DNA of 51,674 bases from NCBI GenBank assembly GCA_021201095.1, contig JAJQFO010000158.1, positions 1-51,674 of the forward strand, written 5' to 3'. The notes beneath the pieces were generated by a model. The model was not told the DNA's origin and searched no databases. It was given only the letters and a program-made list of their open reading frames with translations. Below are positions 12,211 to 51,674 of the stretch, piece after piece. This DNA is from Lachnospiraceae bacterium. Its GTDB lineage: Bacteria > Bacillota > Clostridia > Lachnospirales > Lachnospiraceae. The position numbers and the translations under genes are program-made. The stretch's first letter is position 1. Every line of letters starts with the position of its first letter.

Positions 12211-12354
12211 TTAGGTTATTCTACTGTGAAAACTGTGATTTTTTAACAGTGGCCGTGTTTTCATGTACCGTTATGTATGAACAGCAGCCGCGCTTTCGCA
12301 TTCCATTAAAGTATTGAGCGTGAATTGAAATGAATATATGAAAGGAAGGGACAT

Positions 12355-35282: not shown

Positions 35283-35624
35283 TTACGCCCGCAATGCTTT
35301 GAGATAGCTGGTAATGATGGTTTCCAGATGCTCACGCTTGTTTTCCGGGCAGGATTCGATCAGGGCCTCAAAGGTTTCCATATCGGTATCTTCGGACATA
35401 TTGGCGGATTCCTGTTTCGGGCCAAAGAGAATATAGTCCGTGCTGACGTTCAGAGTCTGGGAAAAGGCGCAGAGGGTTTCCAGAGACATCCCCTTTTTCC
35501 CAAGCTCGATATCATAGCAGAATCTGGGGGAAATATTCAGGAATTCTGCCATCTGCTCACGGCTGTATCCGTGTGCTTCCCTCAGACGGCGGATTCTCTG
35601 GCCTATTTCAAGTTTGCTTTGCAT
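35283..35624 (-). CDS. Xre-family helix-turn-helix regulator
   Basis: DNA-binding protein of 113 residues. The N-terminal Xre/Cro HTH is clear: IGQRIRRLREAHGYSREQMA then EFLNISPRFCYDIELGKKGM and LETLCAFSQTLNVSTDYILFG. The C-terminal half (ETFEALIESCPENKREHLET) is helical and probably mediates dimerisation. ATG 35624 follows GAGGAGG by 7 bases. It diverges from the giant surface-protein gene with 283 bases between the starts, so it may regulate both itself and that gene (inference). Confidence 0.88.
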   Translation of the reverse strand: MQSKLEIGQRIRRLREAHGYSREQMAEFLNISPRFCYDIELGKKGMSLETLCAFSQTLNVSTDYILFGPKQESANMSEDTDMETFEALIESCPENKREHLETIITSYLKALRA

Positions 35625-35907: not shown

Positions 35908-38900
35908 ATGAAAGTCAAGCAGCTTAGAAGAATTCTGAGCGTCACTCTGGCGTCGGCGATGCTGATTACAAGCATCCCGGTCTCGAGCGTTGCAAGTGAG
36001 GAGCCTGCAGCCGCTGAGGAGACGACAGAAGCAGCCCAGGCAGATCCTGCAGAGGAAGCAGATGCCGGAGAAACAGCCGGGGCGGAAGAAACGGCCGATG
36101 CAGAAGAAAAGGCTGATGCTGAGGCAGACGCAGACGCGGATGTAACAGCGGATGCGGCAGTTTCAGCAGATGCAGAAGACGCAGCCACCGCAAAAGCTTC
36201 AGCGGATGCGGAAGTAGAAGCCGCCGCGGAAGAAACAGCAGAGGCAGACGCGGAAGAAACGGCGGATGCAGAAAAAACAGCCGCCGCAGAGGGTGCGGAC
36301 AGTACGAGTGATGCAGAAGATACAGAGGACGCGGAGAATGCATCTGTCCGGACAGAAACGTCGGAAACGGCAGTTGATGCAGCCCAGGAGGGTGTAAAGC
36401 CGGAAGAGACAGACTCAGCAGAAGAGACTGTGGAAACAACAGCGGCTGCGAAATCCGCAGTGAAATCTGTCAGGTCGAGTTTGCTGGCTTCTACGCCAAG
36501 CTTGACGGCGGAGCAGGCATCGACGCCAACACTTTCCTGGTCAATAGACGACGGATATACAAAGGAATACGACGAAGAGCCGATTGTTCCTACTGTAATC
36601 GTGACTTTGGACAATACAGAGGTTACAGGGGACTATACAATCACTTATGAATATACCTGGTGCGAGGAAGGTTCTTCGGTGTCCAGTTCGATTGAACTTA
36701 AGGATGCATACAAACCGGGTACCTATACCGCGGTTGCGAAAGTAATCTCTACGGCTGACGAAACAGTCATTTCTGAGGATTTTACGGTATCGTACTCTAT
36801 TACCAAAAAAGTCATTTCGGTTGAATGGTCTGGTGACTCTTCAGCGGTATATACGGGCAGCGCTATAGAAGCTTTGCTGGAACCGTCAGTTGACGATGCT
36901 TATACGAGCATGCTGACAACACCTGATGAGATTGCAGTTGTTGTTTATGATGCAAACGAAAGGGAGATCGTCAGTCCCCAGGATGCGGGTACATACACTT
37001 TACAGGCAAAAGCAGCCCTGGCAGACGACTATTCTTCTTATTACGAAATTGATGAAGATAGTTTGAAAACGACATTTTCGGTTACGCCTATGTCATTGAC
37101 CTTAAAGCTGAAGGAGTCCTCTGCGGAATATAGCGGCTCCGTTATTAGCCCGACGATATATGTGACGCTTGCTGATGGAACCAGTACATTAGAGGCAGAA
37201 ACGTATAGCATTACTATGGACGGTGCAGCTGTTGCAGCGATACAGGATGCCGGAAGCTATGTCCTGTCGGTAGACACGACTGATATAGAAAGTACTCTTA
37301 ATGAAAAGTATCCGGGAAACTACACCATAGACGAAAGCAGTAAATCTCTGACTTTCAAGGTTGATCAAAAGGCAGTTAGCTTCTCGCTCCCGGTGATGGA
37401 AGCGGAATATACCGGCTCTGCGATCCCTTTGCCGGAAGTGACATTCCCACTGGTTGCAGGAGGAGACGCAGCAGCCGACGTCGCGATTTCAGGCTCTTCC
37501 GATTCAATGATTGAGGTTGGAGAGTATCAGCTGGTATTTTCGATTCCGGCTGATTACGCAGATAATTATGTAATCGGCAGCAGTGCAGCGTCGACGGCCA
37601 CATTCACAGTGAAAAAAGTTACGGTTTCTGGCGCGATTACCTGGAGTACGGATGAACTGTATTATGATGGCACATATCAGTATCCGACAGTGGTAGAAAT
37701 TAAGGGTTACTCGAATTCTGAGATGGAGGATCTGGGCCTTACCTATACGGTAAAGGATGCCGACGGCGTAGTGACGGGTGCGACCGTTCCTGATACAGAC
37801 TATACAGTGGAAGTGACCAGCGATCATTACAATTTTACAGACGAAAGCGCATCTTGCTCCTTTACTGTGCAGAAAGTCCAGATAAATTCTTTTACCTGGA
37901 AATATAATGACAGCACGACATTGGAGGCGACTTATTCAGGAGAAGCGATTGACACAAGTAAAATTGTGGCGGAATACACGGGCTATGATGGGACTACAAC
38001 CCTGCAGGCATATGTATATATTGACCCTGCTCTGAATTCCGCTTTGGACGCGGACGGAAATATTGTCGTAGCCGGGGATTATATTCTGGAAGCAAAGATT
38101 TCTGCAAATGGCAACGAAGAAAATGATAAATATTACGAGATTGCGGCGGATGCGGCTGATGTGACAGCAACCTTTACGGTAAACCAGAAGGAGATTTTGC
38201 TCACCTGGAGTGATACATGCTCTTTCACCTATGATCAGGCCGCTCATCAACGCACAGCGACTGCGGAGGGCTATACATTTACATATACCTTTGCTGTTGG
38301 AACTGAGAATGCAGCAGCAGAGGATGGTTTCGACTGGACAGCCATTGACGGTGTCCCGACAGAGCCGGGGACCTATAAAGTCACTGTGGAGGTAGCAACA
38401 GGCCCGTCAGATGCTGACAGTAAGAAGCTGGCAAATCCGTCAGAAACATTTACGATTGTGACCTATCCGGTGGATGGGTTTACCTGGTATAAGTCCGGAG
38501 AGGCTTTGTCCGGCAATACGACATCGGATGTTTATAAGAATGCGGCTTTCGACATGCTGGCTGCGAAGTTTGATCTTACAGATGACATTACAGTAGAAGC
38601 AGATGTGAAGATTACAGGATATACGGATCCTGACGGAAATGTGGCTGTGAGTCTTCCGACAGAAATCAAGGATGCCGGAACATACACACTGGAAGCTTCT
38701 ATTAAAAGTGAGGATATCGAGAAGTATGAGATTTCTTCAGAATGCGCTTATACAACTGCGACCTACACGGTTGAACAGCTGCCCATCACGCTGACAGCGG
38801 ATAACCAGAGTATTTATTATCAGGAAGATAAACCGGCCTGGACAGAAAGCGAGGCGGAGGATTATAGCATCAGTGGCCTCGAGGACACGGGTGTGGCAGA

Positions 38901-41900
38901 AAGTGATGTCAGAGCTGCTCTGAATGTCACACTCTTGATTAAGGATACGGATGCAGCTGCCAGTGTGGATGCCGGAACCTACAGCATTATTCAGATTTCG
39001 GCAGAGCAGACTGCAGTTTCTGCAACCGGGAAAAGCGGTAATTATAGCATTACTACGAAGGTTGGCAGTCTGACAATTAAACAGCTTCCGGTCACTCTTA
39101 CGATTGATGCGGATCAGTCCAAGGTATATGGGGAGGCAGATCCGGAATTGCTGACCTATACGCCGTCAATTATCGCTGAAGATTATAGCGGCAGCGCAGA
39201 TGCGGACAGCATTGTTGCTGAGCTGAACGGTATTGGTACCGTGCTGACGCGTGAAGAGAATGAAAATGTCGGCTCCTGGCTGATTTCCTTTAATCAGGAT
39301 GTGCTGGATGCGGCGGCTAATTATGAAATTACGACAAGTACGGATGATGTATATTTCACTATTGCGAAGCTGGCAATTGCACTTAAGGTGACCGATCAGA
39401 CCAAAGTCTATGGAGAAGCGGATCCGGATTATTTGCCTTATACAGTAGAGATTAAGACGGAGGACTACGCCGGAGAAGAGAATGACTTTGATGCGGAAGC
39501 TATCATTGCTGAACTCGATGAGATCGGGACTGTCCTGGAGCGCAAGGACAGTGATGAAAATGTCACGACGGATACCAATATCCATGTAATTGGATTTGTT
39601 GACGAGACAATTCAGGCAGTAACGAACTATTCGATTGAAGATGCAGACCTGACAGAGGGGACACTCACAATCGAGAAACTGGATGTTTCACTCGCAGTTG
39701 TGAATAAGGAAAAGACCTACAGCTATGGGGATCCGTCGCTGGATTATACGGTGACTATAAACACGGAAAATTATAATGGCGAGGCGAACGGATTTACGGT
39801 AGATTCCGTGAAGACAGAGCTGAATGCCATTGGGACTGTGGTTGAGCGTACAGATGCGGGGACGGACGAAGGGGAGAATGCAGGTTCTCATGCCGTCACG
39901 TTTATTGAGGACACAATTGCAGCGGCGAATGCCGGGAATTATACGATTGAGTCTTCAAATCTGACCGAAGGAACGCTTACAATCAACAAGCTTGAAATTT
40001 CTATCGAGGTTGATGCCAAGTCGAAGTATTACGGGGATGTTGATCCGACATTGTCGTATACAGTTACCAGTATTCCGGACGGCGCCGGAAAAACGGCTGA
40101 GGATATTATTGCTGAAATTAATGAAGAATATGGCGATATTCCGCTTTCGAGAGCTGCCGGTACGGATGTGGGCAGCTACACGATCCGCTTTTTAGCGGTT
40201 CCGGGTAACTATAAGGTAAACGATACTTCCTCGGAACTGACGATTATGCTGCTGCCGGTTGTTGTAACAGCACAGGCGGATCAGTGGAAGTATTACAGCG
40301 AATCAGAGCCGGAGCATTTTGCGTATGATGTAGCGATAGGAACAGATGAATCCGGAAATACGGCGGCAACGCAGCTGTCAACAGAAGCGATTAAGCTGGA
40401 GCTTGATGAGAAGAACAACTGCGATATTCTCCAGAGGGAATCCGGTGAAGAGGCATGGGTTTATGCATACGAACTGATTAATAAGGACAGAATCTACGGC
40501 AACTTTATTCTGACCTTTGACGAGTCGGTTGATGAGGACTTTGAGATTGTAAAGCTGCCTGTAACGATCACGGCAGATGCCGGACAAAGTAAGTATTATG
40601 GAGCGAACGATCCGGAAGTCTATACCTACACAGTGACCAATACCTCCGATGTGGAGAGTACACTTGAGCCGGAGGAGATTATCGGCGAACTTGAGAAAGA
40701 GTTTGACCTGGAAGTCGTTTCTGATACAACGGTATTCCTGAAGCGTGAATCGGGTGAGGATGCAGACACCTATGCACTGTTTCTTGTCTTTGACGAGACG
40801 ACATCTGATAATTTCGCGATCACCTACGAGGCAGATGTGTTCACGGTGAAGAAGCTTCCGGTTACCATCATCCCGGATGCGAACCAGCAGAAGATTTTCG
40901 GTGCAAAGGAGCAGGAATTCTATACGTACACGATAGACTTCAGGTCTTCCCGCACAACTCTGACCTCGGATGAGATTATGGATGAACTGGGCAACTATGT
41001 ACTGGCGCGCGAGTCGGGCGAGGCTGTCGGCATCTATGACTACTATATTGCTGAGGATCCGGACAACTTTACGCTGACTCTGACGGATGACCCGTTGATT
41101 TACTACGAAATTACTACCATCACGATTACATCTGTTGACTCCATTACCAGCCGTCAGACCAGCTTCGGTGTGACGACAGATCTGGTGGGAGAGAGACAGG
41201 CTGGCGTGACGACGAAGATTGCGGTTGATGTGGTATCGTATCCGAAGTCGGCGGACGGTATTCTGTTCAGTGACAATATTGACGATTACATTACGGATGC
41301 GACAGCTGGTATTGCATTCACAGGTGAGTCCCAGACGATCAATGTGAATGAAGTGACTTACCAGAAGCTGAGAAAAGACACAGAGAATAAGACGTATCTG
41401 AGCTGGGCCGGATATCTGCCGGCAGGCACGGTGCTGCGTGTTTCCATCGTGGATGGCGAAGGGAATGTTGTCAGCGAGAAGGCAGTGGAAGTGACTGTCA
41501 GTGCGGTGGCGGTATCCTTTAACTGGGATCCGGCTTCCTACTCCACCAGTTCTTCTACAGGCAATTATGTCGTTTCTAATAATGGTACGACAGGAGCGCT
41601 CGCGCTCGTAGTTGCAAATGGCTCCGCCGGAGCCGGCGAGATGGTAGAGCTCGCATACAGCAAGGAGAGCGGCAGCACAGCATATCACTATGGTGCGCTC
41701 AACCTGAACTTCATTCCGGAGGTCAACAATTCCGGCCTGGTACATGTGGGACAGAGCATTACGGCGGGCATTGTCGATACACTGAACCTGACATGCGAGT
41801 CCAAGACTCTGAACTTCTACGTAGATGACACGGCCTTCGATATTCCGGCGGCTTCGATTTCATTTGCGAACCGCAGCAATGAAGTGTCGATTACACTTCC

Positions 41901-43272
41901 GGAGGTTGGTACGGTGACCAGCGTGACGATTGCCGGAGCGACCGTGGCGGTGTCCGGTGAGATGGGCACGACCTTTACCTTCCCGGTAGAGTGGTCCGGA
42001 GAAAATCTGGTTACTTCCGGCTCTGCCATCAGCGTGGCATATACGGATCAGGCAGGACATCAGGGGACCGGCACCGGAACGGTGACAAAGTCTTCTGTGG
42101 CGACGCCGATTACCTTCACAATGCGTCCGGCGCTGAACTCTGCCGGTTACCTGAACGGTGCGAGCAGCACTCTGATCATCAGCGGTACGGCGTGCGCATG
42201 CGAGCCGATTATTGTGACAGTTGCGGGTACGGCACAGACCACCTACGCGACACAGCAGGAGGCCTGGAGTGATGAAAACGGCTCCTGGGAGATTATCGTT
42301 TCCATGTCCTCTCTGCCGGAGGGCGAGAGCTTTACAATCAGCGCAGAATATGCGGACGTAGTTGGAACCAGCTATTCGATCACGGCAAACTACAATGAGT
42401 ATGTCGCTGAGGCGACACTGCTTTCACCGGTCTATGAGGCGATGACACATCTGTCAGGCCTGGTGGAGCCGGGTACCTCGGTTGCTCTGGTAATCAACGG
42501 TGACACACAGAACTATTATGAACTGAGCGTGGATCAGTACGGACATTTCTCAACAGACAATATGCCGATGCTGTTCGCGGATGAGGACTCATTTGATATT
42601 TATGTAACAGATATTGCGGGCAATGTTTCGATTCTGCACTATGAGGTGACGGATTATGTAGAGACAACCAGCGTATTATCTCCGATGGGCAAATTCCTGT
42701 ACTCGGAAGAAGCAGATAATGCTTCCGGCTACGTGGTTCTTCCGGTCGCTGCTTCTGACTTTAAGGCGGAAGAAGAAGGCGGAGAGGATCTGGAGAGCAT
42801 TGAGCTGCCTCTGCTGATGGGCGCGTCCTACATTGTCGGTACCTTTACCGTGGATCGCACGGAGAATGGCATAACTGTAACCTCTGCGGTTGAGCTGGAC
42901 GAGGAGTTGATTGATCCGGAGGATTACAGTGTGGAAGATATCATTCTGCTGGTATTTACCTCAGAGCCGACTGCACTGGAGCTGAAGGCTATCCAGAATG
43001 CTATGGAGTCCGGGAATGAGGAAGCTCTTCAGAATGTATACGAAGCTTATGGAAATGTCTATGAAGCCGCTTACGGTGAGGAAATCGAGCTGCCGGAGAA
43101 TGGCAACATCTGGATTGCAAGTGTACAGGAGATGACGATCCTGACCGACGCGATCGAAGAGTTGGAACTGTATCAGTACATCTACGACGTGGTTGATGAG
43201 GAAGAGGAGAATCCTTACGACCTTGACAAGGATCATTACGATGATCTCTATAAATCTTATCAGGAAAGATAA
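35908..43272 (+). CDS. Giant secreted MBG-repeat surface protein (2454 residues)
   Basis: Exported protein with a signal peptide (MKVKQLRRILSVTLASAMLI; cleavage near SVASEE). Residues about 31-190 are Ala/Glu/Asp-rich low complexity. Residues about 200-950 hold repeated beta domains of the form VxWSxxxxxYxG followed by DAGTYxLxA. Residues about 955-1730 hold at least seven MBG-type units beginning LPVTLTIDADQSKVYGEADP or similar (variants YYGANDPE, YGDPSLD). Residues about 1740-2290 contain Ig-like/Big-type segments, and the end is acidic without LPXTG, helix or wall-binding repeats. The ribosome site AAGGAGG precedes ATG 35908 by 10 bases. MBG domains occur in adhesins. Absence of an anchor means retention would need a partner, perhaps the envelope complex encoded next. 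Confidence 0.85.
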   Translation: MKVKQLRRILSVTLASAMLITSIPVSSVASEEPAAAEETTEAAQADPAEEADAGETAGAEETADAEEKADAEADADADVTADAAVSADAEDAATAKASADAEVEAAAEETAEADAEETADAEKTAAAEGADSTSDAEDTEDAENASVRTETSETAVDAAQEGVKPEETDSAEETVETTAAAKSAVKSVRSSLLASTPSLTAEQASTPTLSWSIDDGYTKEYDEEPIVPTVIVTLDNTEVTGDYTITYEYTWCEEGSSVSSSIELKDAYKPGTYTAVAKVISTADETVISEDFTVSYSITKKVISVEWSGDSSAVYTGSAIEALLEPSVDDAYTSMLTTPDEIAVVVYDANEREIVSPQDAGTYTLQAKAALADDYSSYYEIDEDSLKTTFSVTPMSLTLKLKESSAEYSGSVISPTIYVTLADGTSTLEAETYSITMDGAAVAAIQDAGSYVLSVDTTDIESTLNEKYPGNYTIDESSKSLTFKVDQKAVSFSLPVMEAEYTGSAIPLPEVTFPLVAGGDAAADVAISGSSDSMIEVGEYQLVFSIPADYADNYVIGSSAASTATFTVKKVTVSGAITWSTDELYYDGTYQYPTVVEIKGYSNSEMEDLGLTYTVKDADGVVTGATVPDTDYTVEVTSDHYNFTDESASCSFTVQKVQINSFTWKYNDSTTLEATYSGEAIDTSKIVAEYTGYDGTTTLQAYVYIDPALNSALDADGNIVVAGDYILEAKISANGNEENDKYYEIAADAADVTATFTVNQKEILLTWSDTCSFTYDQAAHQRTATAEGYTFTYTFAVGTENAAAEDGFDWTAIDGVPTEPGTYKVTVEVATGPSDADSKKLANPSETFTIVTYPVDGFTWYKSGEALSGNTTSDVYKNAAFDMLAAKFDLTDDITVEADVKITGYTDPDGNVAVSLPTEIKDAGTYTLEASIKSEDIEKYEISSECAYTTATYTVEQLPITLTADNQSIYYQEDKPAWTESEAEDYSISGLEDTGVAESDVRAALNVTLLIKDTDAAASVDAGTYSIIQISAEQTAVSATGKSGNYSITTKVGSLTIKQLPVTLTIDADQSKVYGEADPELLTYTPSIIAEDYSGSADADSIVAELNGIGTVLTREENENVGSWLISFNQDVLDAAANYEITTSTDDVYFTIAKLAIALKVTDQTKVYGEADPDYLPYTVEIKTEDYAGEENDFDAEAIIAELDEIGTVLERKDSDENVTTDTNIHVIGFVDETIQAVTNYSIEDADLTEGTLTIEKLDVSLAVVNKEKTYSYGDPSLDYTVTINTENYNGEANGFTVDSVKTELNAIGTVVERTDAGTDEGENAGSHAVTFIEDTIAAANAGNYTIESSNLTEGTLTINKLEISIEVDAKSKYYGDVDPTLSYTVTSIPDGAGKTAEDIIAEINEEYGDIPLSRAAGTDVGSYTIRFLAVPGNYKVNDTSSELTIMLLPVVVTAQADQWKYYSESEPEHFAYDVAIGTDESGNTAATQLSTEAIKLELDEKNNCDILQRESGEEAWVYAYELINKDRIYGNFILTFDESVDEDFEIVKLPVTITADAGQSKYYGANDPEVYTYTVTNTSDVESTLEPEEIIGELEKEFDLEVVSDTTVFLKRESGEDADTYALFLVFDETTSDNFAITYEADVFTVKKLPVTIIPDANQQKIFGAKEQEFYTYTIDFRSSRTTLTSDEIMDELGNYVLARESGEAVGIYDYYIAEDPDNFTLTLTDDPLIYYEITTITITSVDSITSRQTSFGVTTDLVGERQAGVTTKIAVDVVSYPKSADGILFSDNIDDYITDATAGIAFTGESQTINVNEVTYQKLRKDTENKTYLSWAGYLPAGTVLRVSIVDGEGNVVSEKAVEVTVSAVAVSFNWDPASYSTSSSTGNYVVSNNGTTGALALVVANGSAGAGEMVELAYSKESGSTAYHYGALNLNFIPEVNNSGLVHVGQSITAGIVDTLNLTCESKTLNFYVDDTAFDIPAASISFANRSNEVSITLPEVGTVTSVTIAGATVAVSGEMGTTFTFPVEWSGENLVTSGSAISVAYTDQAGHQGTGTGTVTKSSVATPITFTMRPALNSAGYLNGASSTLIISGTACACEPIIVTVAGTAQTTYATQQEAWSDENGSWEIIVSMSSLPEGESFTISAEYADVVGTSYSITANYNEYVAEATLLSPVYEAMTHLSGLVEPGTSVALVINGDTQNYYELSVDQYGHFSTDNMPMLFADEDSFDIYVTDIAGNVSILHYEVTDYVETTSVLSPMGKFLYSEEADNASGYVVLPVAASDFKAEEEGGEDLESIELPLLMGASYIVGTFTVDRTENGITVTSAVELDEELIDPEDYSVEDIILLVFTSEPTALELKAIQNAMESGNEEALQNVYEAYGNVYEAAYGEEIELPENGNIWIASVQEMTILTDAIEELELYQYIYDVVDEEEENPYDLDKDHYDDLYKSYQER

Positions 43273-43388: not shown

Positions 43389-44075
43389 ATGAAAATGATA
43401 CTGAAATTGGTGACAAGGGTGGATTTCTGGATTTATGCGGTCATGGCGCTGATCTTTCTGTCCGGGATTCTGCTCTGCCTTTTCCCTGTGCGGAAGGTGC
43501 AGAAGGCTCTTCGGCGCGCTATGGGAAATCTGGGATCCCGCAGGTCGGACGGCAGCTATCTTTACATGTCGCCGGACTTTTTAAATTGCAGGGCACTGGA
43601 TGACTGCTGGAGAAGATTTTTAAGCAATCTGGATCTGATGAAGAAAAATAACGCAGCCTGCGAGGTCTATGATTTTATCAATCCGCAGACAGCGATACAT
43701 GAACCCGGACATTCTGCGTATGGAGCAATGATACCGGGTGCTTTGACAACTCTTGGAATTCTTGGATCGTTTTACGGAATCGTAAGCGGTCTGTCTACAC
43801 TTGATTTAAGTACAACGGAGACTATGAGCCAGTCCATTTCCGTGCTGATATCCGGCATGAGGACGGCATTTAATACATCGATTGTCGGCGCGGTTCTCGC
43901 GCTGATTTTCCAGTTGCTTCGGCGAGTCGTTATTGGAAGCGCCGAGCATACTCTGAAATTATTTATCAATAGCTGTCAGACGGAGATCATGGCAATGCTC
44001 ACGCCGGACGCGACTCTGATGCAGACGCTGCATGCCATTCTTGCGGAGCTGCGCACACTGAATGCGAAGCAGTAG
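43389..44075 (+). CDS. MotA/TolQ/ExbB-family proton channel subunit (ZorA-like)
   Basis: Inner-membrane channel subunit of 228 residues. Helices are predicted at about 12-33 (VDFWIYAVMALIFLSGILLC), 113-134 and 162-180. The core PGALTTLGILGSFYGIVSGL, followed by SQSISVLISGMRTAFNTSIV and GAVLALIFQLLRR, is the conserved two-helix channel signature of MotA/ExbB/TolQ and, most closely in pattern, of ZorA. Such subunits form a pentamer around two MotB/ExbD-type partners and use the proton or sodium gradient to turn. ATG 43389 follows AGGGAGA. The long MotA cytoplasmic loop and the long ZorA tail are both missing. The OmpA-type partner is 246 bases downstream. Confidence 0.85.
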   Translation: MKMILKLVTRVDFWIYAVMALIFLSGILLCLFPVRKVQKALRRAMGNLGSRRSDGSYLYMSPDFLNCRALDDCWRRFLSNLDLMKKNNAACEVYDFINPQTAIHEPGHSAYGAMIPGALTTLGILGSFYGIVSGLSTLDLSTTETMSQSISVLISGMRTAFNTSIVGAVLALIFQLLRRVVIGSAEHTLKLFINSCQTEIMAMLTPDATLMQTLHAILAELRTLNAKQ

Positions 44076-44154
44076 AGCGATGTTTACAGAAGGAGGCAGA
44101 GCAAAGATATGTGCTTTAGGGTGGTGACAGTGGTAAGACAGTTCATCCAGATAA

Positions 44155-44271
44155 TGACATGGTAAAGGCATGTGTCTTCTGGCGTGACAGTGTATAGGCA
44201 TGTGTCTTCTGGCGTGACAGTGCATAGGCATGTGTCTTCTGGCAGCGACAGTGTATAGACATGTGTCGCCG
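44155..44271 (+). repeat. 30-base tandem repeats between the motor subunit genes
   Basis: Contiguous units with period 30: 44184-44213 and 44214-44243 are almost identical (one difference), flanked by diverged copies at about 44155-44183 and 44244-44271. The core is TAGGCATGTGTCTTCTGGC. No start codon or ribosome site makes it a gene. The purpose between two genes of one operon is unknown. Confidence 0.75.
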
Positions 44272-44321
44272 AGGAGTAACAACAGCATGTAGAATCAGGG
44301 CCTGAGAGGAGGCAGGAGCGG

Positions 44322-45521
44322 ATGCGCAGAAAATACGATGTGGAATACGGGGAAGAAAATGCGTACAGCCCCTGGGAAACCTATTCTGATCTCTATTGCG
44401 GGCTGCTGCTGGTGTTTGTATTGCTGTTCTTTTTCGCAATTTACCAGTATATAGATGCGAGGGAAACCAACGATGCGGACACGGCTGCTTTGCAGGAGTC
44501 GATGCTGGAGGAACAGGCGAGTGTGCTGGCGATTTACAAGGCCGACCTGGAGGAACAGGAGGCTGCGTATCAGGAGAAAAACGATGAGCTGGCAAGCCAG
44601 CAGTCTGTGCTGGCGATTTTGCAGGCGGATCTGGAAGAGCAGGAGTCGCTGATTGCCAGCCAGCAGGCCGAGCTGGAGGAAAAAGAGAGCGAGATGGATG
44701 CTCAGGCGAGTCTGCTGGCGGTGCAGCAGTCGGCTCTGGAGGAACAGGAGGCAGCTTTAAGCGTTCAGCAGGCGACCTTGAGCGAGCAGGAGACACAGCT
44801 GTCGGCACAGCAGGCAACGCTGGAGGAGCAGGAGACGCAGCTTTTGACGCAGCAGGCAACGCTGAAGGAGCAGGAGGCGGCACTGGCAGAGCAGCAGACG
44901 ACGCTGGCAGTGCAGGAGGAGGAGCTGGCCGCGCAGCAGACTACGGTCGAGTCCCTGCAGGCACAGCTGGATGAGCAGGCAGCGCAGATTGAGCAGATTA
45001 TCGGTGTCCGCAGCCAGCTGATTGAGCTTTTGAATGAGGAACTGACCGCGCACGGCATCGCGGTGCAGGCGGATCTGTCGACTGGTGCCATCGTTTTTGA
45101 AAGCAGCATTTTATTTGACAAAAACAGCATGGAGCTCAGCGAAGAAGGGAAGGAATTCTTCCGGGAGTTTCTGCCGGTATATCTGGAAGTCCTTCTGCAG
45201 CCGGAGTTTCTGGACTACATTGCTGAGATTTTGATCGAGGGGCACACAGATGACAGCGGAACCTACCTGTACAATCTGCAGTTATCTCAGCAGCGCGCGT
45301 ACAGTGTCTCGGAATATTTCCTGGGAGATGACTGTGATTTCCTCGATGCGGAGACAATTGAGGTGCTGAAGACGCTGGTAACAGTGAACGGATGTGCGGA
45401 CAAGGATCCTATCTGCCTGGAGGACGGGACAATTGATGAGGAAGCCTCGCGGCGCGTGGAGATCAAATTCCGGCTCAAGGATCAGGAAATGATCGAAGAA
45501 CTGGATGAAATATTAAATTGA
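44322..45521 (+). CDS. MotB/ZorB-like OmpA-family stator protein with long coiled coil
   Basis: Membrane protein of 399 residues, partner of the channel subunit. The N-terminus SPWETYSDLYCGLLLVFVLL has Asp23 at the start of the single helix (about 24-44), where MotB/ExbD-type proteins carry their ion-binding aspartate. Residues about 55-235 form an unbroken heptad coiled coil rich in Gln/Glu (LSEQETQLSAQQATLEEQE). The C-terminal OmpA/MotB peptidoglycan-binding domain has ILFDKNSMELSEEGKEFF, EILIEGHTDDSGTY, LSQQRAYSVSEYF and RRVEIKF. A coiled coil of about 180 residues would span roughly 25 nm, of the order of a Gram-positive wall. AGGAGG precedes ATG 44322. The stop nearly abuts the next gene. 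Confidence 0.88.
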   Translation: MRRKYDVEYGEENAYSPWETYSDLYCGLLLVFVLLFFFAIYQYIDARETNDADTAALQESMLEEQASVLAIYKADLEEQEAAYQEKNDELASQQSVLAILQADLEEQESLIASQQAELEEKESEMDAQASLLAVQQSALEEQEAALSVQQATLSEQETQLSAQQATLEEQETQLLTQQATLKEQEAALAEQQTTLAVQEEELAAQQTTVESLQAQLDEQAAQIEQIIGVRSQLIELLNEELTAHGIAVQADLSTGAIVFESSILFDKNSMELSEEGKEFFREFLPVYLEVLLQPEFLDYIAEILIEGHTDDSGTYLYNLQLSQQRAYSVSEYFLGDDCDFLDAETIEVLKTLVTVNGCADKDPICLEDGTIDEEASRRVEIKFRLKDQEMIEELDEILN

Positions 45522-45535
45522 ATGGGGAACGTATC

Positions 45536-47245
45536 ATGAAGAAGCATCGGATTTGGACAACCTTACTGATTTTATTAATGGCGCTGCTGGTTTTCCCGGC
45601 TGCCGCTTCTGCGGATGCGAGCAAGCTGCGGATCAGCCAGATTGTACAGAATGGTAATGACGTAGACCTGTACGTGAGCCTGCTGGACGACTCGGATCAG
45701 CCCGTGACGGAATCTGTATCTGCAGATCAGTTTACTGTGACGATCGGGGAGGACGGATCGATTCCCGCCACCTCTGCGCTACAATTTTCCTCGACCGGGG
45801 AAGGGGTTTCCTATGTGTTTGTGATCGATATTTCCAAATCGATGACAGAGGATGAGATGCAGCAGGTGCGCGATGCCCTTACCTCGTTTGTGGGGGAGAT
45901 GACTTCGAATGATTATATGCAGATCATTACGGCAGGGACACAGGTTACCTCGCTGTGTGAGCCGACGCAGGATCAGAGCGTGCTGACAGGTGCCATACAG
46001 CAGATCGCGCGGACGGACAACTATACATATTTGTACAAGGCGATCTCCACTGCACTGGAAACGCAGCGAAAGAACATCGAAGCACTGCCGGACAGGGTAG
46101 TTCTGGTCGTAGTGACAGATGGGATGGATGATTCGGATGGGGCAACCGATGAGAATCAGGTCCTGACGGATATCGCGGAGACAAGGGTTCCGCTCTACGT
46201 GGTCGGTGTAAAAGGCAGCGATTCCACGGCCAGTCTTTCAAGTGTGGGTACGATCGCGCGTCAGTCCGGCGGTCTGATTTTTTCCTACAATGACATGTCC
46301 GTCAGTGAAGCGATGAGCAACATCAGAAATATTCAGAACGCGGTCTGCAAACTGACGGTCCAGCCGAAGGAAAGCAGCTTCGGCTCACAGAACCTTTCCT
46401 GGTCTGTCACATACAATCCGGGAAGCTATACCCTCTCGAGCTCCAGCTATATATATTCGCTAAGTCTGGAAGGCGTGTTGTTTGAGACCGAGACAGAGAC
46501 CGAAGAGCCGACGGAGGAGCCGACCGAAGAACCAACCGAAGAGCCGACGGAGGAACCAACGGAGGAACCAACCGAAGAGCCAACGGAGGAGCCGACCGAA
46601 GAACCAACGGAAGTGCAGACAGAGCCTGCGGTAAAGGAAGGGACAGCTCTGTTGGGCAAAATTACCGGATTTTTACAGAAAAACTGGATGATCTGTATTG
46701 CGGCGGCACTGATTCTGATTGCACTGCTGATCATCATCATCAGCGTTGTATTGATGAGAAAAAATAAGGACTTTGAAACAGAATCCTATGACGATTCTTC
46801 CTATGAGGAGACTTTGGCGGATATTCCCGGAGAAAGATCTGGGAGCGTAATGGACAGCGAAGAAACGGTCGATGAAATCGACGAGTATGATGATGAGCGG
46901 ACAATTGACGAGGCGACAGGCGGCGGGATCCGTCTGCGGCTTGAAATCACCTTTGACGGACGCACAGAGGTGGTGGAACGGACACTGGAAGGCCAGCTGG
47001 TGCTCGGACGCGGGACGGAATGCGATGTGGATGTCGTCCTTGGCTCTACCATCCCGGAGCGAAAAATGATTTCCAGACACCATGCATTTATTGTGGACTG
47101 TCCGGATGGACTGTATGTGAAGGATAACGAAAAAAACAAGACCTATCTGAACGGTACGGAAGTATCGGGCGAAGCTGTCCTGCGGGATGAGGATGTCCTG
47201 CAGATGGGCAAGGCAACGGTTAAGATCAAGATATTGAACTATTGA
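45536..47245 (+). CDS. Transmembrane VWA-FHA protein (extracellular VWA, cytoplasmic FHA)
   Basis: Exported then anchored protein of 569 residues. Signal peptide: MKKHRIWTTLLILLMALLVF, cleavage near ASADAS. A von Willebrand A domain spans about residues 92-270 with the metal site DISKS (in YVFVIDISKSM) and VTDGMDDSD. A Glu/Pro/Thr linker of about ten EPTE units (about 318-362) leads to one helix (WMICIAAALILIALLIIIIS, about 381-409). The cytoplasmic tail ends in an FHA domain (about 468-569) with LVLGRGTECDVDV, ISRHHAFIV and NKTYLNGTEV, the phospho-threonine-binding residues Arg/Ser-Arg-His/Asn-Gly being present. ATG 45536 with GGGGAA is preferred to the TTG at 45518. It links an outside metal-dependent adhesion or protein-binding domain to inside kinase signalling. 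Confidence 0.9.
   Translation: MKKHRIWTTLLILLMALLVFPAAASADASKLRISQIVQNGNDVDLYVSLLDDSDQPVTESVSADQFTVTIGEDGSIPATSALQFSSTGEGVSYVFVIDISKSMTEDEMQQVRDALTSFVGEMTSNDYMQIITAGTQVTSLCEPTQDQSVLTGAIQQIARTDNYTYLYKAISTALETQRKNIEALPDRVVLVVVTDGMDDSDGATDENQVLTDIAETRVPLYVVGVKGSDSTASLSSVGTIARQSGGLIFSYNDMSVSEAMSNIRNIQNAVCKLTVQPKESSFGSQNLSWSVTYNPGSYTLSSSSYIYSLSLEGVLFETETETEEPTEEPTEEPTEEPTEEPTEEPTEEPTEEPTEEPTEVQTEPAVKEGTALLGKITGFLQKNWMICIAAALILIALLIIIISVVLMRKNKDFETESYDDSSYEETLADIPGERSGSVMDSEETVDEIDEYDDERTIDEATGGGIRLRLEITFDGRTEVVERTLEGQLVLGRGTECDVDVVLGSTIPERKMISRHHAFIVDCPDGLYVKDNEKNKTYLNGTEVSGEAVLRDEDVLQMGKATVKIKILNY
46487..46620 (+). repeat. 12-base repeats encoding an EPTE linker
   Basis: About ten units of GAGCCGACGGAG-type 12-base repeats giving EPTE/EPTEE steps in the VWA-FHA protein. 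Such arrays change length readily; the encoded stretch is an extended extracellular spacer. Confidence 0.85.
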
Positions 47246-47283
47246 TCAAAGATATTTGAGGGGGCTGCCGGGAGGGAGAAGCT

Positions 47284-49767
47284 GTGAAAAAAACAGTATG
47301 CAAAATATTGGTGTGGGTACTTTGCCTGCTGATGATGGGGACGGCGGCTGCCGGCGCCAGAGAGCAGGTGATCTTCGGTATTCAGAACGAAGAGGTAAAG
47401 TTTGGACTGAGGGATGAATTTGAAGTGACCGGGGATACTTATGCATTAGTTATTTTTGCAGAAGCAGTCTGCGGAGATGACGAAGTATGGGTTTCCGTTT
47501 ACGAGAAAACGTACAGCGCGGAAGAACTGACGGAAACATTTCAGGAAGCTGCTGCTGTGATTGAGGAAGTACCCCGGGCGGAGCAGTTGGCCGTAAAACT
47601 GTTTGAAAAAAATGATGGCGAGTGGAGTGTGTGCCAGGAACTGGTGCAGAGCAGCCGCACTTTTTCGGAACCCTCGTATTTTCTGACGATTATTGGTGCG
47701 GACTCTGGGATTAATGAATCAGCAGACGAGGCGGAAACAGAGACTGAGACGGAGACCGCAGCAGCTGCAGGTACCAGGATGATTATGGGTTCCGATACAA
47801 TTGCCGGAGCTGGGGCGGCTGCAGGCACCGAGGCAGATGCAGAAACGGAGCCGGGACTTCATTTTGATTCAGAATGGCTCGAGCTTCGGATTGAGAGTGA
47901 AGGATATCGGGATCAGGAGCTGTATATTCTGGCTGATGAGCAGGATTCTACGATTCTGAGCCTGACACTGGCTTCTGAGTTGTATGGATATGATATACAG
48001 ATAGAAGATTCTGTCGTGCGAATTCACGACGCGGATGGCGTACTTTCGGAAAATCCGGTTCTGTTTTTTGGCAGACAGAGCAGCGAAAATGACCTGATAT
48101 TGCAGGATTGCCAGGTGGAGGTTACGACCGGGCAGGCATGGCCGGGCTTCGAGCTCGAGACGGAGATCGAGACGGAAAGTGAGACTGAGACCGAAACGGA
48201 TGCCGGAATTGTCAGCGAAACTGAAACAGAAAGCGAAACCGAGACAGAAAGCGAAACCGAGACAGAAAGCGAAAGCGAGACCGAGACGGAAAGAGAAACT
48301 GAGAGCGAAACCGAAACAGAGACCGATACAGAGACAGAAAGCGAAACCGACACCGACAGCGAAACCGAGACAGAAAGCGAAACTGAGACGGAAAGCGATT
48401 CTGCGATCGTGGTCGAGACAGGAACCGAGCCTGAAACAGAAATTAAGACAGAAGCAGAAACAAAGTCGGAAATCGAGATCGAAACTGAGCGTGAAAGCGA
48501 AACTGGGGCAGAAAGCGAAACTGGGGCAGAAAGCGAAACTGGCACAGAAAGCGAAAACGGTATTGAAACCGAAACCGAGACGGAAAGCGAGATAGAAACC
48601 GAGAGCGAGACAGAAACCGAGGCTGGGACCGAGAGCGAGACGGAAACAGAGACCGAGACAGAAAGCGAAACCGAGACAGAATCGGAAACTGCGGCTGCTG
48701 TGCAATCCGGCGGCTCTGCGGGCGGATCCGCGCCGTCTGGTTCGCAGCAAAAAAGCATCTGGCTGATCGTGCTGGCAGTATTGATTTTGATAGCAGCGTT
48801 AGTTGTTGCCTGGATGTGCGTAATCCGTTCGCCTCAGAAGAACAGGCGAACGGGATCGTATGGTACTCCGATGGGGGACGACGAGGATACACTCGTTCCA
48901 GAGGATGAGAAAGCTTCAGCAGTAATGACAGCTGCGGCAGCAAGGGGAGCAGCGGATTCCGTATCCGGAGCATCCCGTGCCGGGCTGGTACTACGCGGTG
49001 TGGTCGTGAATAATAAGGGCCGTGTCCGCGGAAACAATGAAGACAATTTCTGCTTTAACGGAGAATATATGAAGCGCAGCCGCATGGATCAGGGAGCGTT
49101 TCTGAGAGCAGAATGCCGCGAAGATGCACAGCTGTATGCAGTCTGCGACGGTATGGGCGGAGCGGATTCCGGCGAGGAAGCTTCCCACAGGGCGGCAAAG
49201 GTACTTGCACAGAAAAAAGACCAGTACTCTCAGCTGGCTGACACAGGCGAACTGACAAAGATTCTGCGGGAAATTTCGGAACGAATTTATGAGGAAGCAC
49301 AGCAGAGAGGGCAAAAGTCGGGGACGACGATCGCCATGATGGTGCTGATCGGACGCAGAGGGATTTTCGCGAATGTCGGGGACAGCCGCGTCTATCGGTT
49401 CCGCGATAAAAAACTTTCGCAGATAACGGTAGACCACTCGAAAGTGCAGAGGATGATTTCCATGGGGCTTTTGACACCGGAGCAGGCTAAGACCGATCCG
49501 AGCCGCCATGTGATCACGCAATATCTGGGAATGCCGCCGGAGGTAAAGGTGTCGCCCTATTTTGTGACGGATCAGGCACTACGTGAACGCGATATTTATC
49601 TGCTGTGCAGCGATGGCCTGACTGACATGGTGGATGATTCCCGGATTGAATCGATATTAAAGGAAAAAGCAAATCTGGACGAGGCAGCGCAGGAGCTTTT
49701 GAAGGCCGCTTTGAACAATGGTGGAAAGGACAACGTGACCATTATGCTTGTCTGCGTTCAAGCGTAG
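47284..49767 (+). CDS. Receptor-like PP2C-family protein phosphatase
   Basis: Transmembrane phosphatase of 827 residues, starting at GTG 47284 after GGGAGGGAG. Signal peptide (TVCKILVWVLCLLMMGTAAA), then an extracellular beta-rich region (about 25-290) of no recognised family, then a Glu/Thr/Ser repeat linker (about 292-474), then one helix (IWLIVLAVLILIAALVVAWM, about 490-512). The cytoplasmic PP2C domain (about 573-827) is complete: VRGNNEDNF, AVCDGMGGADSG, GTTIAMMVL, ANVGDSRVYR, LLCSDGLTDM and GGKDNVT carry the metal-binding aspartates. It should remove phosphates placed by the kinase encoded next. The receptor layout is unusual, since bacterial PP2C partners of Ser/Thr kinases are usually soluble. 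Confidence 0.9.
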   Translation: MKKTVCKILVWVLCLLMMGTAAAGAREQVIFGIQNEEVKFGLRDEFEVTGDTYALVIFAEAVCGDDEVWVSVYEKTYSAEELTETFQEAAAVIEEVPRAEQLAVKLFEKNDGEWSVCQELVQSSRTFSEPSYFLTIIGADSGINESADEAETETETETAAAAGTRMIMGSDTIAGAGAAAGTEADAETEPGLHFDSEWLELRIESEGYRDQELYILADEQDSTILSLTLASELYGYDIQIEDSVVRIHDADGVLSENPVLFFGRQSSENDLILQDCQVEVTTGQAWPGFELETEIETESETETETDAGIVSETETESETETESETETESESETETERETESETETETDTETESETDTDSETETESETETESDSAIVVETGTEPETEIKTEAETKSEIEIETERESETGAESETGAESETGTESENGIETETETESEIETESETETEAGTESETETETETESETETESETAAAVQSGGSAGGSAPSGSQQKSIWLIVLAVLILIAALVVAWMCVIRSPQKNRRTGSYGTPMGDDEDTLVPEDEKASAVMTAAAARGAADSVSGASRAGLVLRGVVVNNKGRVRGNNEDNFCFNGEYMKRSRMDQGAFLRAECREDAQLYAVCDGMGGADSGEEASHRAAKVLAQKKDQYSQLADTGELTKILREISERIYEEAQQRGQKSGTTIAMMVLIGRRGIFANVGDSRVYRFRDKKLSQITVDHSKVQRMISMGLLTPEQAKTDPSRHVITQYLGMPPEVKVSPYFVTDQALRERDIYLLCSDGLTDMVDDSRIESILKEKANLDEAAQELLKAALNNGGKDNVTIMLVCVQA
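48158..48705 (+). repeat. Glu/Thr/Ser-coding repeat tract in the phosphatase gene
   Basis: About 180 codons built from 6-, 12- and 18-base units of the GAAACCGAGACAGAAAGC type, encoding ETESETE-like sequence. It forms the extracellular linker between sensor region and membrane. Confidence 0.85.
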
Positions 49768-49970
49768 CGAATATGCGGGAATGGTGTCAGACCGTGTTAT
49801 AAGGCGGTGATGTGTGGGCTGTGCTTCAGACAGCAACATAAGGCAAAGAATGTGTGGGCATCCACAGGATGACAAGAAAGAGCGTACATTTATCTCATAG
49901 TGCAGCGGAAGCAGTGAGCAGGCAGATCTGCCTGCATTGGGATATTGATTTGGGGACGGTGAGATAAGAA

Positions 49971-51674
49971 ATGCCATCAGATGATTTCAGAAAATATGAA
50001 CCCTTTTTCGGGAAATGGAGACTCGCCAGAGAGGAGCCTTTGGGAAGAGGAGCTTTCGGCGATGTATATGAGATCTGCTGGGACGATGATCTGGGGGACA
50101 GAGCGGTATCGGCCCTGAAGGTGATGCATATCCCGCGCGAGGACGCGCTGCGCTCTCAGATGGAAGTGCAGCCAAATAAAGATGCTGTCCGCAGCTATTT
50201 TTCCCGGCAGGTAGACCGGATCAAGGGCGAGATCCGCATCATGCGCAGATGCAAGGGCCACAGCAATATCGTCAGCTATGAAGATCATCTGATCATTGAA
50301 AACGGCGGGGAATACGGCATCGGCTGGGATATCCTGATCCGGATGGAGCTGCTTCAGCCAATTACTGTCGATTATCTTCGTGAAAAGAATGCCACGCAGT
50401 ACGATATTATCTGCATGTGGCGCGATATTGCCAATGCGCTGATTTTCTGCGATAACGCCAATATTATCCACAGAGATATCAAGCCGGCGAATATACTGGT
50501 CTCGGAGAGCGGAAGCTATAAGCTGACTGACTTCGGCGTTGCCCGGGAAGTGATGGAAAGCGATGCGCTGGCTTCTACGCGTGTCGGCACGGAAGTCTAT
50601 ATGGCGCCCGAAGTCTATGACAAGAGGAACCACCAGTATGACAAGAGAGCGGACTATTATTCACTTGGACGTGTGATTTATTACTATCTGAATAATTTCC
50701 GGCATGCGTTTTTGCCTCCGAATCCGCAGGAAGTGACGATGGAGGATATGGACCGCGCGGAGGAACTGCGTCTGAAAGGTGAGAAGCTTCCGAAGATCAA
50801 CGGCGTCTCGAAGGAAATTAATCAGCTTCTGGAAAAATCATTGTCCTTCCGCCCTGCCGGGAGACCGAAAAATGCGCAGGAGCTTTATGACGCGATTCAG
50901 AAGATTCTGGACAAGCAGGGTGCGGAGCTGAGGAAAAGGCCGATAGGCGGTGTTGAGGGAAACTCTCACGGCACAGCTTCAGTTTCTGGGAAGGGAAGTT
51001 CTATTAAAAATAAGAAACCCTCAGACGAAAAACCGATATCCAGAGATCCTGTATCTTATGGAAAGGGAAGCATATCCAGAGATGTCAAGCCTGTAACTTC
51101 CTTGAACAGCGCGAAGAAAAAAACGATGAATCTGGCTGTACCGATCGCCGTGGCGTCTGTGATGCTGGTCGCGGGAATCGGCGGCGTTACATATGGCATT
51201 TATAGCAGGAATAACCAGATGCAGATGGCGCATGGAAACGCATCAGGCAGTGCGCAGGGCATTCTTTTCGGGACGGAGACGGAGTCAGAGACTCCTCTTC
51301 TGACAGGGAATGAGACAGAGAATGCGGCTGGTTCCGTGTCCCAGACAGGACTTTCTACAGAAACACCGGCGGAGACGGCTGCTGTGACTGAGCCGATTAC
51401 CGAGCAGGAGACAGAAATTGTGACCGAGCCGGTCACTGAGCCGATTACAGAAAATGTGACGGAGCCCGGGACGGAAACGGATATCGAGACGGAGACTGTG
51501 ACGGAATCTGAGAAAGAGACTGACATCGAGACAGAGAGCGACATTGAAACGGAGTACATGACAGAGACGGGAACTGAAACGGAAGCAGTAGCAATGCCAA
51601 TAACAGAGATCGAGACGGAAACAGAGATCGAGACGGAAACAGAGATCGAGACGGAAACAGAGATCGAGACGGAA
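49971..51674 (+). CDS. Transmembrane Ser/Thr protein kinase (3' end outside window)
   Basis: Hanks-type kinase, 568 codons present and still open at the window end. The kinase domain (about 15-320) has the glycine loop LGRGAFGDVYE, lysine in ALKVM, catalytic loop HRDIKPANILV (about 167-177), DFGVA, activation segment end VGTEVYMAPEV, and ADYYSLGRVIYYYL. All catalytic residues are intact. A basic linker follows, then one helix (NLAVPIAVASVMLVAGIGGV, about 387-410). The extracellular part is a Thr/Glu-rich tract (ETDIETETVTESEKE) ending in 18-base repeats at the edge; a sensor domain may follow. ATG 49971 follows GGTGAGATAAGA, a weak site. It pairs with the upstream PP2C phosphatase and FHA protein as a kinase-phosphatase-reader set. 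Confidence 0.92.
   Translation, partial: MPSDDFRKYEPFFGKWRLAREEPLGRGAFGDVYEICWDDDLGDRAVSALKVMHIPREDALRSQMEVQPNKDAVRSYFSRQVDRIKGEIRIMRRCKGHSNIVSYEDHLIIENGGEYGIGWDILIRMELLQPITVDYLREKNATQYDIICMWRDIANALIFCDNANIIHRDIKPANILVSESGSYKLTDFGVAREVMESDALASTRVGTEVYMAPEVYDKRNHQYDKRADYYSLGRVIYYYLNNFRHAFLPPNPQEVTMEDMDRAEELRLKGEKLPKINGVSKEINQLLEKSLSFRPAGRPKNAQELYDAIQKILDKQGAELRKRPIGGVEGNSHGTASVSGKGSSIKNKKPSDEKPISRDPVSYGKGSISRDVKPVTSLNSAKKKTMNLAVPIAVASVMLVAGIGGVTYGIYSRNNQMQMAHGNASGSAQGILFGTETESETPLLTGNETENAAGSVSQTGLSTETPAETAAVTEPITEQETEIVTEPVTEPITENVTEPGTETDIETETVTESEKETDIETESDIETEYMTETGTETEAVAMPITEIETETEIETETEIETETEIETE
51603..51674 (+). repeat. Four 18-base repeats at the window end
   Basis: Four identical ACAGAGATCGAGACGGAA units (51603, 51621, 51639, 51657), encoding TEIETE, within the kinase extracellular tail. 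The array reaches the last base, so its full length is unknown and this is also a likely place for assembly breakage. Confidence 0.9.

Follow-up and report, generated by a model that had tools for sequence, protein, structure and literature searches.

In type VII secretion systems (T7SS) of the classes T7SSc to T7SSj, giant envelope proteins occur together with kinases, phosphatases and FHA proteins, and control of these systems by phosphorylation was suggested by the authors who described them (Garrett, Higginson and Palmer 2024, PMC11217815). In staphylococci, a dedicated hydrolase lets the T7SSb component EsaA assemble across the wall (PMC13059805). Ion-driven motors are tied to protein secretion in the type IX secretion system (T9SS), where GldLM plays this part (PMC9127263). 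Ion flow, peptidoglycan binding and the ZorA tail all matter to the working of Zorya defence, the effector of type II Zorya being ZorE (PMC11890865). No description of an ion-driven motor for a T7SS was found in the open-licence literature searched; in PMC11217815 neither 'ompa' nor 'proton' occurs, and the strings 'mot' belong to other words in the 12 of 13 places listed. Here we analyse a 51,674-nucleotide stretch of DNA from a Lachnospiraceae bacterium (the window). It makes up the whole of contig C306; the assembly to which this contig belongs has 362 contigs and 4,828,027 bases, with completeness 99.37 and contamination 5.35. The window carries a ZorAB-like pair of motor genes next to genes for receptor-type signalling proteins, and these genes are almost certainly the front half of a T7SS locus. 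The features are the following:

43389 to 44075, plus strand: ZorA/MotA-like ion-channel subunit, short form, 228 residues, about three transmembrane helices, without long cytoplasmic tail
44322 to 45521, plus strand: ZorB/MotB-like partner; transmembrane helix with Asp, long Q/E-rich stretch, C-terminal OmpA-type peptidoglycan-binding domain
45536 to 47245, plus strand: VWA-FHA protein; surface VWA domain, E/P/T-rich linker, transmembrane helix, cytoplasmic FHA domain
47284 to 49767, plus strand: receptor PP2C; signal-like N-terminus, ectodomain, E/T-rich linker, transmembrane helix, cytoplasmic PP2C domain (E 2.8e-17)
49971 to 51674, plus strand: receptor Ser/Thr kinase; protein kinase domain (E 3.4e-39), one transmembrane helix, 3' end open in an E/T repeat
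35908 to 43272, plus strand: giant secreted MBG-repeat protein, 2454 residues (MBG_2 E 2.1e-17), N-terminal signal-like helix
51602 to 51674, plus strand: perfect 18-bp repeat array, 4.1 copies, 100% matches, at the contig end
44155 to 44267, no strand: 30-bp tandem repeat, 3.7 copies, between both motor genes
35283 to 35624, minus strand: helix-turn-helix regulator of the XRE type beside the locus (HTH_3 E 1.2e-11), membership uncertain

A first-pass annotation, made from the window alone, had read the five genes from 43389 onwards as a candidate new envelope system. The five do lie on one strand in the order it gave (open reading frame (ORF) list and Pfam), and the set is larger than was stated, as the upstream MBG gene and T7SS genes on a second contig belong with it. 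The T7SS setting escaped this annotation, since C306 breaks off inside the kinase gene, within the perfect 18-bp repeat. The further members that it proposed to look for beyond position 51674 probably lie on contig C106 of the same genome (locus L067). This contig starts with an E/T-rich repeat, followed by a domain matching the C-terminal half of the kinase of locus L073 from another genome, and continues with genes for a small FHA protein, a transmembrane FHA protein (TM-FHA), EssC, a LytTR protein, a 283-residue protein (p283), YukD, a 139-residue protein, four WXG100 proteins, a trypsin-FHA protein, a 376-residue protein, more small proteins and a Lipase_3 protein (24.3 bits, cut-off 22). 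EssC scored 1077.8 bits with TIGR03928 (cut-off 778.4) and E 9.5e-49 with FtsK_SpoIIIE; YukD scored 43.7 bits with PF08817 (cut-off 27, E 4.7e-11). One WXG100 protein reached 46.8 bits with TIGR03930 (cut-off 44.85), and the three others were above the PF06013 cut-off. The 283-residue protein matched no Pfam family and, at E 0.01, no protein of solved structure.

A whole kinase homologue, encoded at L073 10048-12660 by one ORF of 870 residues, matches both halves (kinase E 5e-143, ectodomain E 6e-72). These matches suggest that the ectodomain of the window kinase is encoded on C106, at L067 3-1208, and that C306 adjoins C106 in this genome, where EssC was matched just once at E 1e-60 or better. 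The front half and the EssC half are physically joined on one contig in L034/L069, where the motor is present, and likewise in the motorless L073 and L076. The idea of a free-standing envelope system was dropped, the remainder of the locus having been seen on C106 and in L034/L069; chance ORFs were dropped as well, domain scores being above curated cut-offs.

A scan of genome contigs with the channel subunit gave two relatives, L034 from a Lachnospiraceae metagenome-assembled genome (73% identical to the subunit of the window) and L035 from an Eubacteriales one (69%). L034, continued as L069 (genome G047), has the whole locus from the motor to the trypsin-FHA gene on one contig: MBG (three ORFs), MotA-like, OmpA-like, VWA-FHA, PP2C ectodomain with transmembrane helix, a separate PP2C with hydrophobic C-terminus, kinase, ectodomain, a second VWA-FHA protein with transmembrane helix (FHA E 1.5e-20; VWA 23.5 bits, just below the cut-off of 23.8), TM-FHA, EssC, LytTR, a p283 piece, YukD, WXG100 genes and trypsin-FHA. 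At L034 15966-18588 the kinase and the ectodomain are out of frame with each other, the shift falling within the E/T repeat, which may be an assembly error or repeat-driven phase variation. The L035 contig (genome G773) has the motor genes and stops in the PP2C gene; the only EssC match of this genome at 1e-30 lies on contig C52, with 67% identity to the EssC of the window, and is accompanied there by TM-FHA, LytTR, p283, YukD, three WXG100 and trypsin-FHA. The general order is giant MBG protein, ZorA/MotA-like, ZorB/OmpA-like, VWA-FHA, receptor PP2C, receptor kinase, FHA, TM-FHA, EssC, LytTR, YukD, WXG100 genes and trypsin-FHA. The joining of a channel/OmpA pair to a transmembrane kinase/phosphatase/VWA-FHA set, which the first-pass annotation had put forward, is real, and its question about conserved gene order was answered by the two other genomes, which keep the order.

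By description, the locus resembles T7SSc to T7SSj in its EssC/TsxC ATPase, WXG100 and YukD-like proteins, membrane kinase with an outer part, PPM phosphatase and FHA proteins (PMC11217815). It shares a VWA protein with T7SSc and a LytR-like regulator with T7SSi, and it has the giant MBG protein where T7SSd, T7SSe and T7SSj have a giant Sec-exported envelope protein (TsxI; immunoglobulin-like in T7SSd, with a C-terminal transmembrane helix). In our MBG protein, a crude hydropathy scan showed no transmembrane helix in the last 340 residues, and a marginal stretch at 2089-2107; it is the probable surface fibre of the locus. Unlike TscF and TscE, described as cytoplasmic, the phosphatase and the VWA protein here span the membrane and have outer domains, and the locus differs from T7SSc to T7SSj further by the trypsin-FHA protein and, in three genomes, by the motor pair. 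TsxJ (DUF6382-FHA), known from T7SSe, T7SSf and T7SSj, is not at the locus, the FHA proteins of which show FHA and no DUF6382; a DUF6382-FHA protein (PF19909 E 1.8e-45) is encoded away from it, on contig C84 of the window genome (L068 8452-10227).

With T7SSb, composed of EssA, EssB, EssC, EsaA and EsaB, the locus has in common an EssC with N-terminal FHA domain, EsaB/YukD and WXG100 proteins. EssB (PMC11217815) and our kinase both consist of a kinase-type cytoplasmic part, a transmembrane helix and an outer part; unlike in EssB, the kinase motifs are intact here. EssB/YukC (PF10140) was matched in none of the 47 genomes of the genus at E 0.001, whereas the Bacillus subtilis control matched, and neither EsaA nor EssA turned up in Pfam and NCBIfam scans of the C106 proteins, no genome search having been aimed at them. 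A switch of secretion by a kinase and FHA proteins, as proposed here, would work like the threonine-phosphorylation switch of type VI secretion, discussed in PMC11217815; no type VI structural genes were recognised at our locus. The absence of flagellar, Tol/Ton and type VI genes that had been noted earlier was borne out by Pfam, which named none among 6 + 18 window proteins scanned (four ORFs between 30469 and 34822 were scanned by PADLOC alone).

The two motor subunits are what the first-pass annotation took them for. The channel subunit scored 25.1 bits with MotA_ExbB (PF01618, cut-off 22.9, E 1.6e-5), and its predicted fold was nearest to ZorA, then to ExbB and TolQ; score and predicted fold together place it in the MotA/TolQ/ExbB superfamily. 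It stops about 45 residues past its last transmembrane stretch. The partner has a single N-terminal transmembrane helix by hydropathy, an OmpA domain (PF00691, 36.5 bits, E 6.4e-9) and an Asp in the motif 'YSD', the presumed ion-binding residue, which is retained in all four aligned rows; its Q/E-rich stretch is probably a coiled stalk. It matched the PADLOC model ZorB1 with 219 bits and, as part of alignment A2, one row of which comes from the long-form pair described below, the solved ZorAB chains 8vvi_A (E 4.2e-18) and 8qyd_F (E 1.6e-17). The channel subunit also matched the PADLOC ZorA model. ZorA and ZorB are thus the nearest solved relatives of the pair by sequence and fold, and a transmembrane Asp of the ZorB type and an OmpA domain are shared. 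The pair differs from Zorya by the short subunit without long cytoplasmic tail and by the long Q/E-rich stalk of the OmpA partner. GldL and GldM of T9SS, unlike this pair, reportedly lack any peptidoglycan-binding domain that can be detected (PMC9127263).

The three signalling proteins, too, were recognised correctly from the start. In the VWA-FHA protein the VWA (E 2.4e-17) and FHA (E 7.7e-12) domains flank the transmembrane helix; the receptor PP2C combines its phosphatase domain with a transmembrane helix and an E/T-rich linker of about 200 residues (about 275-482); the kinase has one transmembrane helix. The marks of an active kinase (HRD/DFG/APE), of an active PP2C (DGMGG/SDG/DNVT) and of a VWA metal site (DxSxS) are all retained. 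In FHA domains the GR, S..H and N positions bind phospho-threonine. The GR, S-R-H/S..H and N residues are present in VWA-FHA, small FHA and trypsin-FHA; EssC retains S, H and N with GE in place of GR, and TM-FHA is degenerate. A model of the kinase ectodomain (pLDDT 70.9, pTM 0.50) gave only immunoglobulin-like matches among the 50 listed, with query TM-scores of 0.16-0.23.

In all three intact finds the motor is at the same place, between the MBG and the VWA-FHA genes. EssC was found at E 1e-60 or better in 15 of the 47 genomes of the genus. The window genome is one of the 15, and 16 EssC loci of the remaining 14 were examined (5.7 to 19.9 kb, several ended by contig ends). None of the 16 had a MotA- or OmpA-like match; kinase-like matches were present in 10, PP2C in 8 and VWA in 7, showing that phospho-signalling genes are common at the T7SS loci of the genus and that the motor is an extra. 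The earlier proposal that the kinase/phosphatase pair sets the activity of the motor is therefore not required by the data, as the set occurs at T7SS loci without the motor. Linkage of motor and kinase set in relatives, which was also at issue, holds in part: the motor is present in three loci and absent from two syntenic ones.

Remnants of the motor were found in one more genome, G011. Its contig C47 (L043) has two tandem, internally deleted remnants of a short MotA-like gene at 8922-9114 and 12226-12420 (residues 1-54, then 100-111; 71-72% identity), and YukD and WXG100 genes are only a few kb away. This genome had no EssC match at 1e-60, and the ORF beside the remnants had no transposase match in Pfam. 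A protein similar to the helix-turn-helix regulator of the window adjoins the decayed locus (L043 8567-8911; translations compared by eye).

Elsewhere the short form is rare, as judged from searches of overlapping genome sets in which a short form that had diverged strongly might have escaped notice. In the genus, 41 of 47 genomes had a match to the subunit at E 0.001, and the whole short form was found in the window genome only; apart from the two partial G011 copies, the other matches had 25-39% identity and were mostly ORFs of 370-601 residues, with one 170-residue frame at a contig end. At E 1e-25 the subunit was found in 1 of 397 genomes of the family and 1 of 392 of the order. At 1e-15, 12 of 13 genomes in the genus of G047 and 7 of 8 in that of G773 had a match, the short form being restricted to G047 and G773, respectively. 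Nearly every genome of the genus carries a longer ZorA-like/OmpA-like pair (L039 9397-12267 on C176 and L040 5688-8496 on C322 of the window genome, and L044-L058), to which the matches in 41 of 47 genomes point, as do those in the genera of G047 and G773 (12 of 13 and 7 of 8); in L048, the one locus scanned for this, its neighbours are genes for a class II tRNA synthetase and an aconitase-type protein. The OmpA partner was adjacent in 17 of 17 loci, and EssC, YukD or WXG100 genes were near the pair in none of these (9.9-19.9 kb each). The long form is thus a core motor distinct from the short form, and T7SS linkage is particular to the latter.

Among the three intact copies, pS (the proportion of synonymous differences) was 0.74-0.82 for the MotA-like and 0.72-0.82 for the OmpA-like gene, with pN/pS (nonsynonymous over synonymous) ratios of 0.21-0.32 and 0.24-0.38. 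Synonymous sites of the motor genes are near saturation, and both proteins are still 58-73% identical. Pairwise identities between the three genomes were 64-73% for MotA, 60-68% for the OmpA domain, 55-67% for EssC and 36-51% for VWA; the MotA-like protein was the best conserved of the compared parts in each genome pair, which is not expected of a hitch-hiking gene. The motor at this T7SS locus is optional, yet well conserved.

The reading that we prefer, and consider likely, is that of a T7SS of the kinase/phosphatase/FHA sort that gained or kept a dedicated ZorAB-like motor in a few genomes. Probably the motor is functionally part of the secretion system. More tentatively, with chances somewhat below even, it may have a role in wall passage or in anchoring of the conduit, and by analogy with type IX the T7SS might, with similarly guarded confidence, be driven or anchored by a short rotary ZorAB-type stator that is tied to the wall by its long stalk, works with EssC and is gated by the receptor kinase and phosphatase.

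Several observations weigh against this reading. The intact motor is known from three genomes only, and in two of these, the window genome and G773, the front and back halves are on separate contigs. There is no overlap between C306 and C106, and that they adjoin is deduced from the repeat, the homologues and the single EssC match of the genome. L073 (G037) and L076 (G013) have MBG, VWA-FHA, PP2C, kinase, FHA and EssC ordered as in the window, on one contig each, with nothing between MBG and VWA-FHA, so that the motor is dispensable there. Pfam support for the channel subunit by itself is modest (25.1 bits). Ion flow, rotation, a 5:2 complex and contact between motor and T7SS are predictions that go beyond the genes and single-chain models. 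On the EssC tree the motor-bearing proteins are not one group, and the motor label takes three changes and is no more clustered than by chance (500 of 500 shuffles gave a count as low); three changes would fit either a motor that was present early and lost twice, or transfer. EssC of the window is 74% identical to that of the motorless G037, against 67% and 57% for the motor-bearing G773 and G047, and the window motor genes are nearer to L034 whereas its EssC is nearer to G773 among the motor-bearing genomes, which suggests exchange between the halves or uneven rates. For this tree, 14 of the 16 fetched loci entered and G009 was dropped (longest piece below 1200 residues), leaving 13 plus the three motor-bearing rows; three rows have long branches and two an odd make-up, and estimated contamination exceeds 5% in G037 and the window genome.

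The motor could instead act on the giant MBG protein, as a moving or retractable fibre comparable to gliding adhesins, and share only regulation with the T7SS. The motor genes directly follow the MBG gene in all three loci, those of L034 and L035 coming right after an MBG homologue, and the T9SS motor serves secretion and adhesin movement alike (PMC9127263). We nevertheless regard this as unlikely, if the best of the alternatives, for the MBG gene is retained where the motor is missing, directly upstream of VWA-FHA in L073 and L076.

Mere neighbourhood by chance, in which the pair was inserted by accident into an ancestral T7SS locus and carried along, would suit the small number of genomes with the motor, its lack from two syntenic relatives and its scatter on the EssC tree. 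It appears improbable, however, when the near saturation of synonymous sites is set against two proteins that have kept both their sequence and their place, the MotA-like one being better conserved than EssC. No other intact short form was found in the overlapping sets of 47, 397, 392, 13 and 8 genomes, within the limit stated above for strongly diverged forms.

That the pair is a Zorya-like defence motor that senses envelope damage and triggers the T7SS or a toxin is very unlikely: ZorA and ZorB are its nearest solved relatives and the PADLOC models match, but the 228-residue subunit lacks the long tail which, with peptidoglycan binding and ion flow, matters for Zorya function (PMC11890865), and no ZorC, ZorD or ZorE was among the PADLOC matches listed for nine locus proteins (for the kinase, the best 25 of 34) and for ten further proteins of the window, so that membership in Zorya defence is unsupported.

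Returning to a T7SS with a dedicated motor, the following course of events can be envisaged. The outer parts of the VWA protein, PP2C and kinase, carried on E/T-rich linkers, would sense contact or the state of the envelope, and the kinase would phosphorylate T7SS parts. The FHA domains of VWA-FHA, small FHA and EssC would dock on the phosphorylated parts and thereby turn secretion on, and PP2C would reset the switch. Less certain are the steps assigned to the motor: five ZorA-like subunits around two ZorB-like ones may admit ions, the OmpA domains on their long stalk may grip peptidoglycan, and motor work or anchoring may help the T7SS conduit or the MBG fibre through the wall. None of the scanned locus proteins was identified as a wall hydrolase, and a wall-bound motor may therefore meet a need like that served by the staphylococcal hydrolase.

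A motor with a peptidoglycan-binding arm would offer a direct handle on wall passage by a T7SS without EssB, and nature itself supplies the comparison, in relatives that are otherwise syntenic, with and without the motor. Should the motor serve secretion, this motor superfamily would be tied to one more secretion system in addition to type IX. Leaving the motor aside, a receptor PP2C and a VWA-FHA protein beside a receptor kinase broaden the picture of phospho-threonine control of T7SS. The motor pair at a T7SS locus appears to be new, whereas kinase/phosphatase/FHA sets in T7SS variants were already known (PMC11217815).

Some minor observations concern the surroundings of the locus. Tandem repeats of 30 to 42 bp lie between genes of the T7SS locus, one of them between the motor genes and two on C106 (L067 1741-1836 and 10262-10379). 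Promoter-like patterns (4 against 4.7 in shuffled sequence) and terminator-like patterns (7 against 5.3) were not in excess, and 11 plasmid records had distant partial matches, none covering 80% of the query. The reading as a ter/TerY-P set was dropped: Pfam named no ter gene in the scanned window proteins, although no profile search of the genome for such a set was made. At the T7SS locus of G037 a phage-type integrase gene is directly upstream of the MBG gene (L073 386-1591), which suggests an island. The remaining window ORFs are housekeeping or transport genes by Pfam. One of the window genes, at 24207-29324, encodes an FtsX-type permease of 1705 residues (FtsX E 1.4e-30) with a very long helical, coiled-coil-like insert and weak PADLOC matches to JetC-type coiled coils. 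Contig C57 of the window genome (L041, L042) carries a cluster of four kinase-like ORFs and one PP2C-like ORF, together with J-domain-like and zinc-ribbon-like proteins (both by eye).

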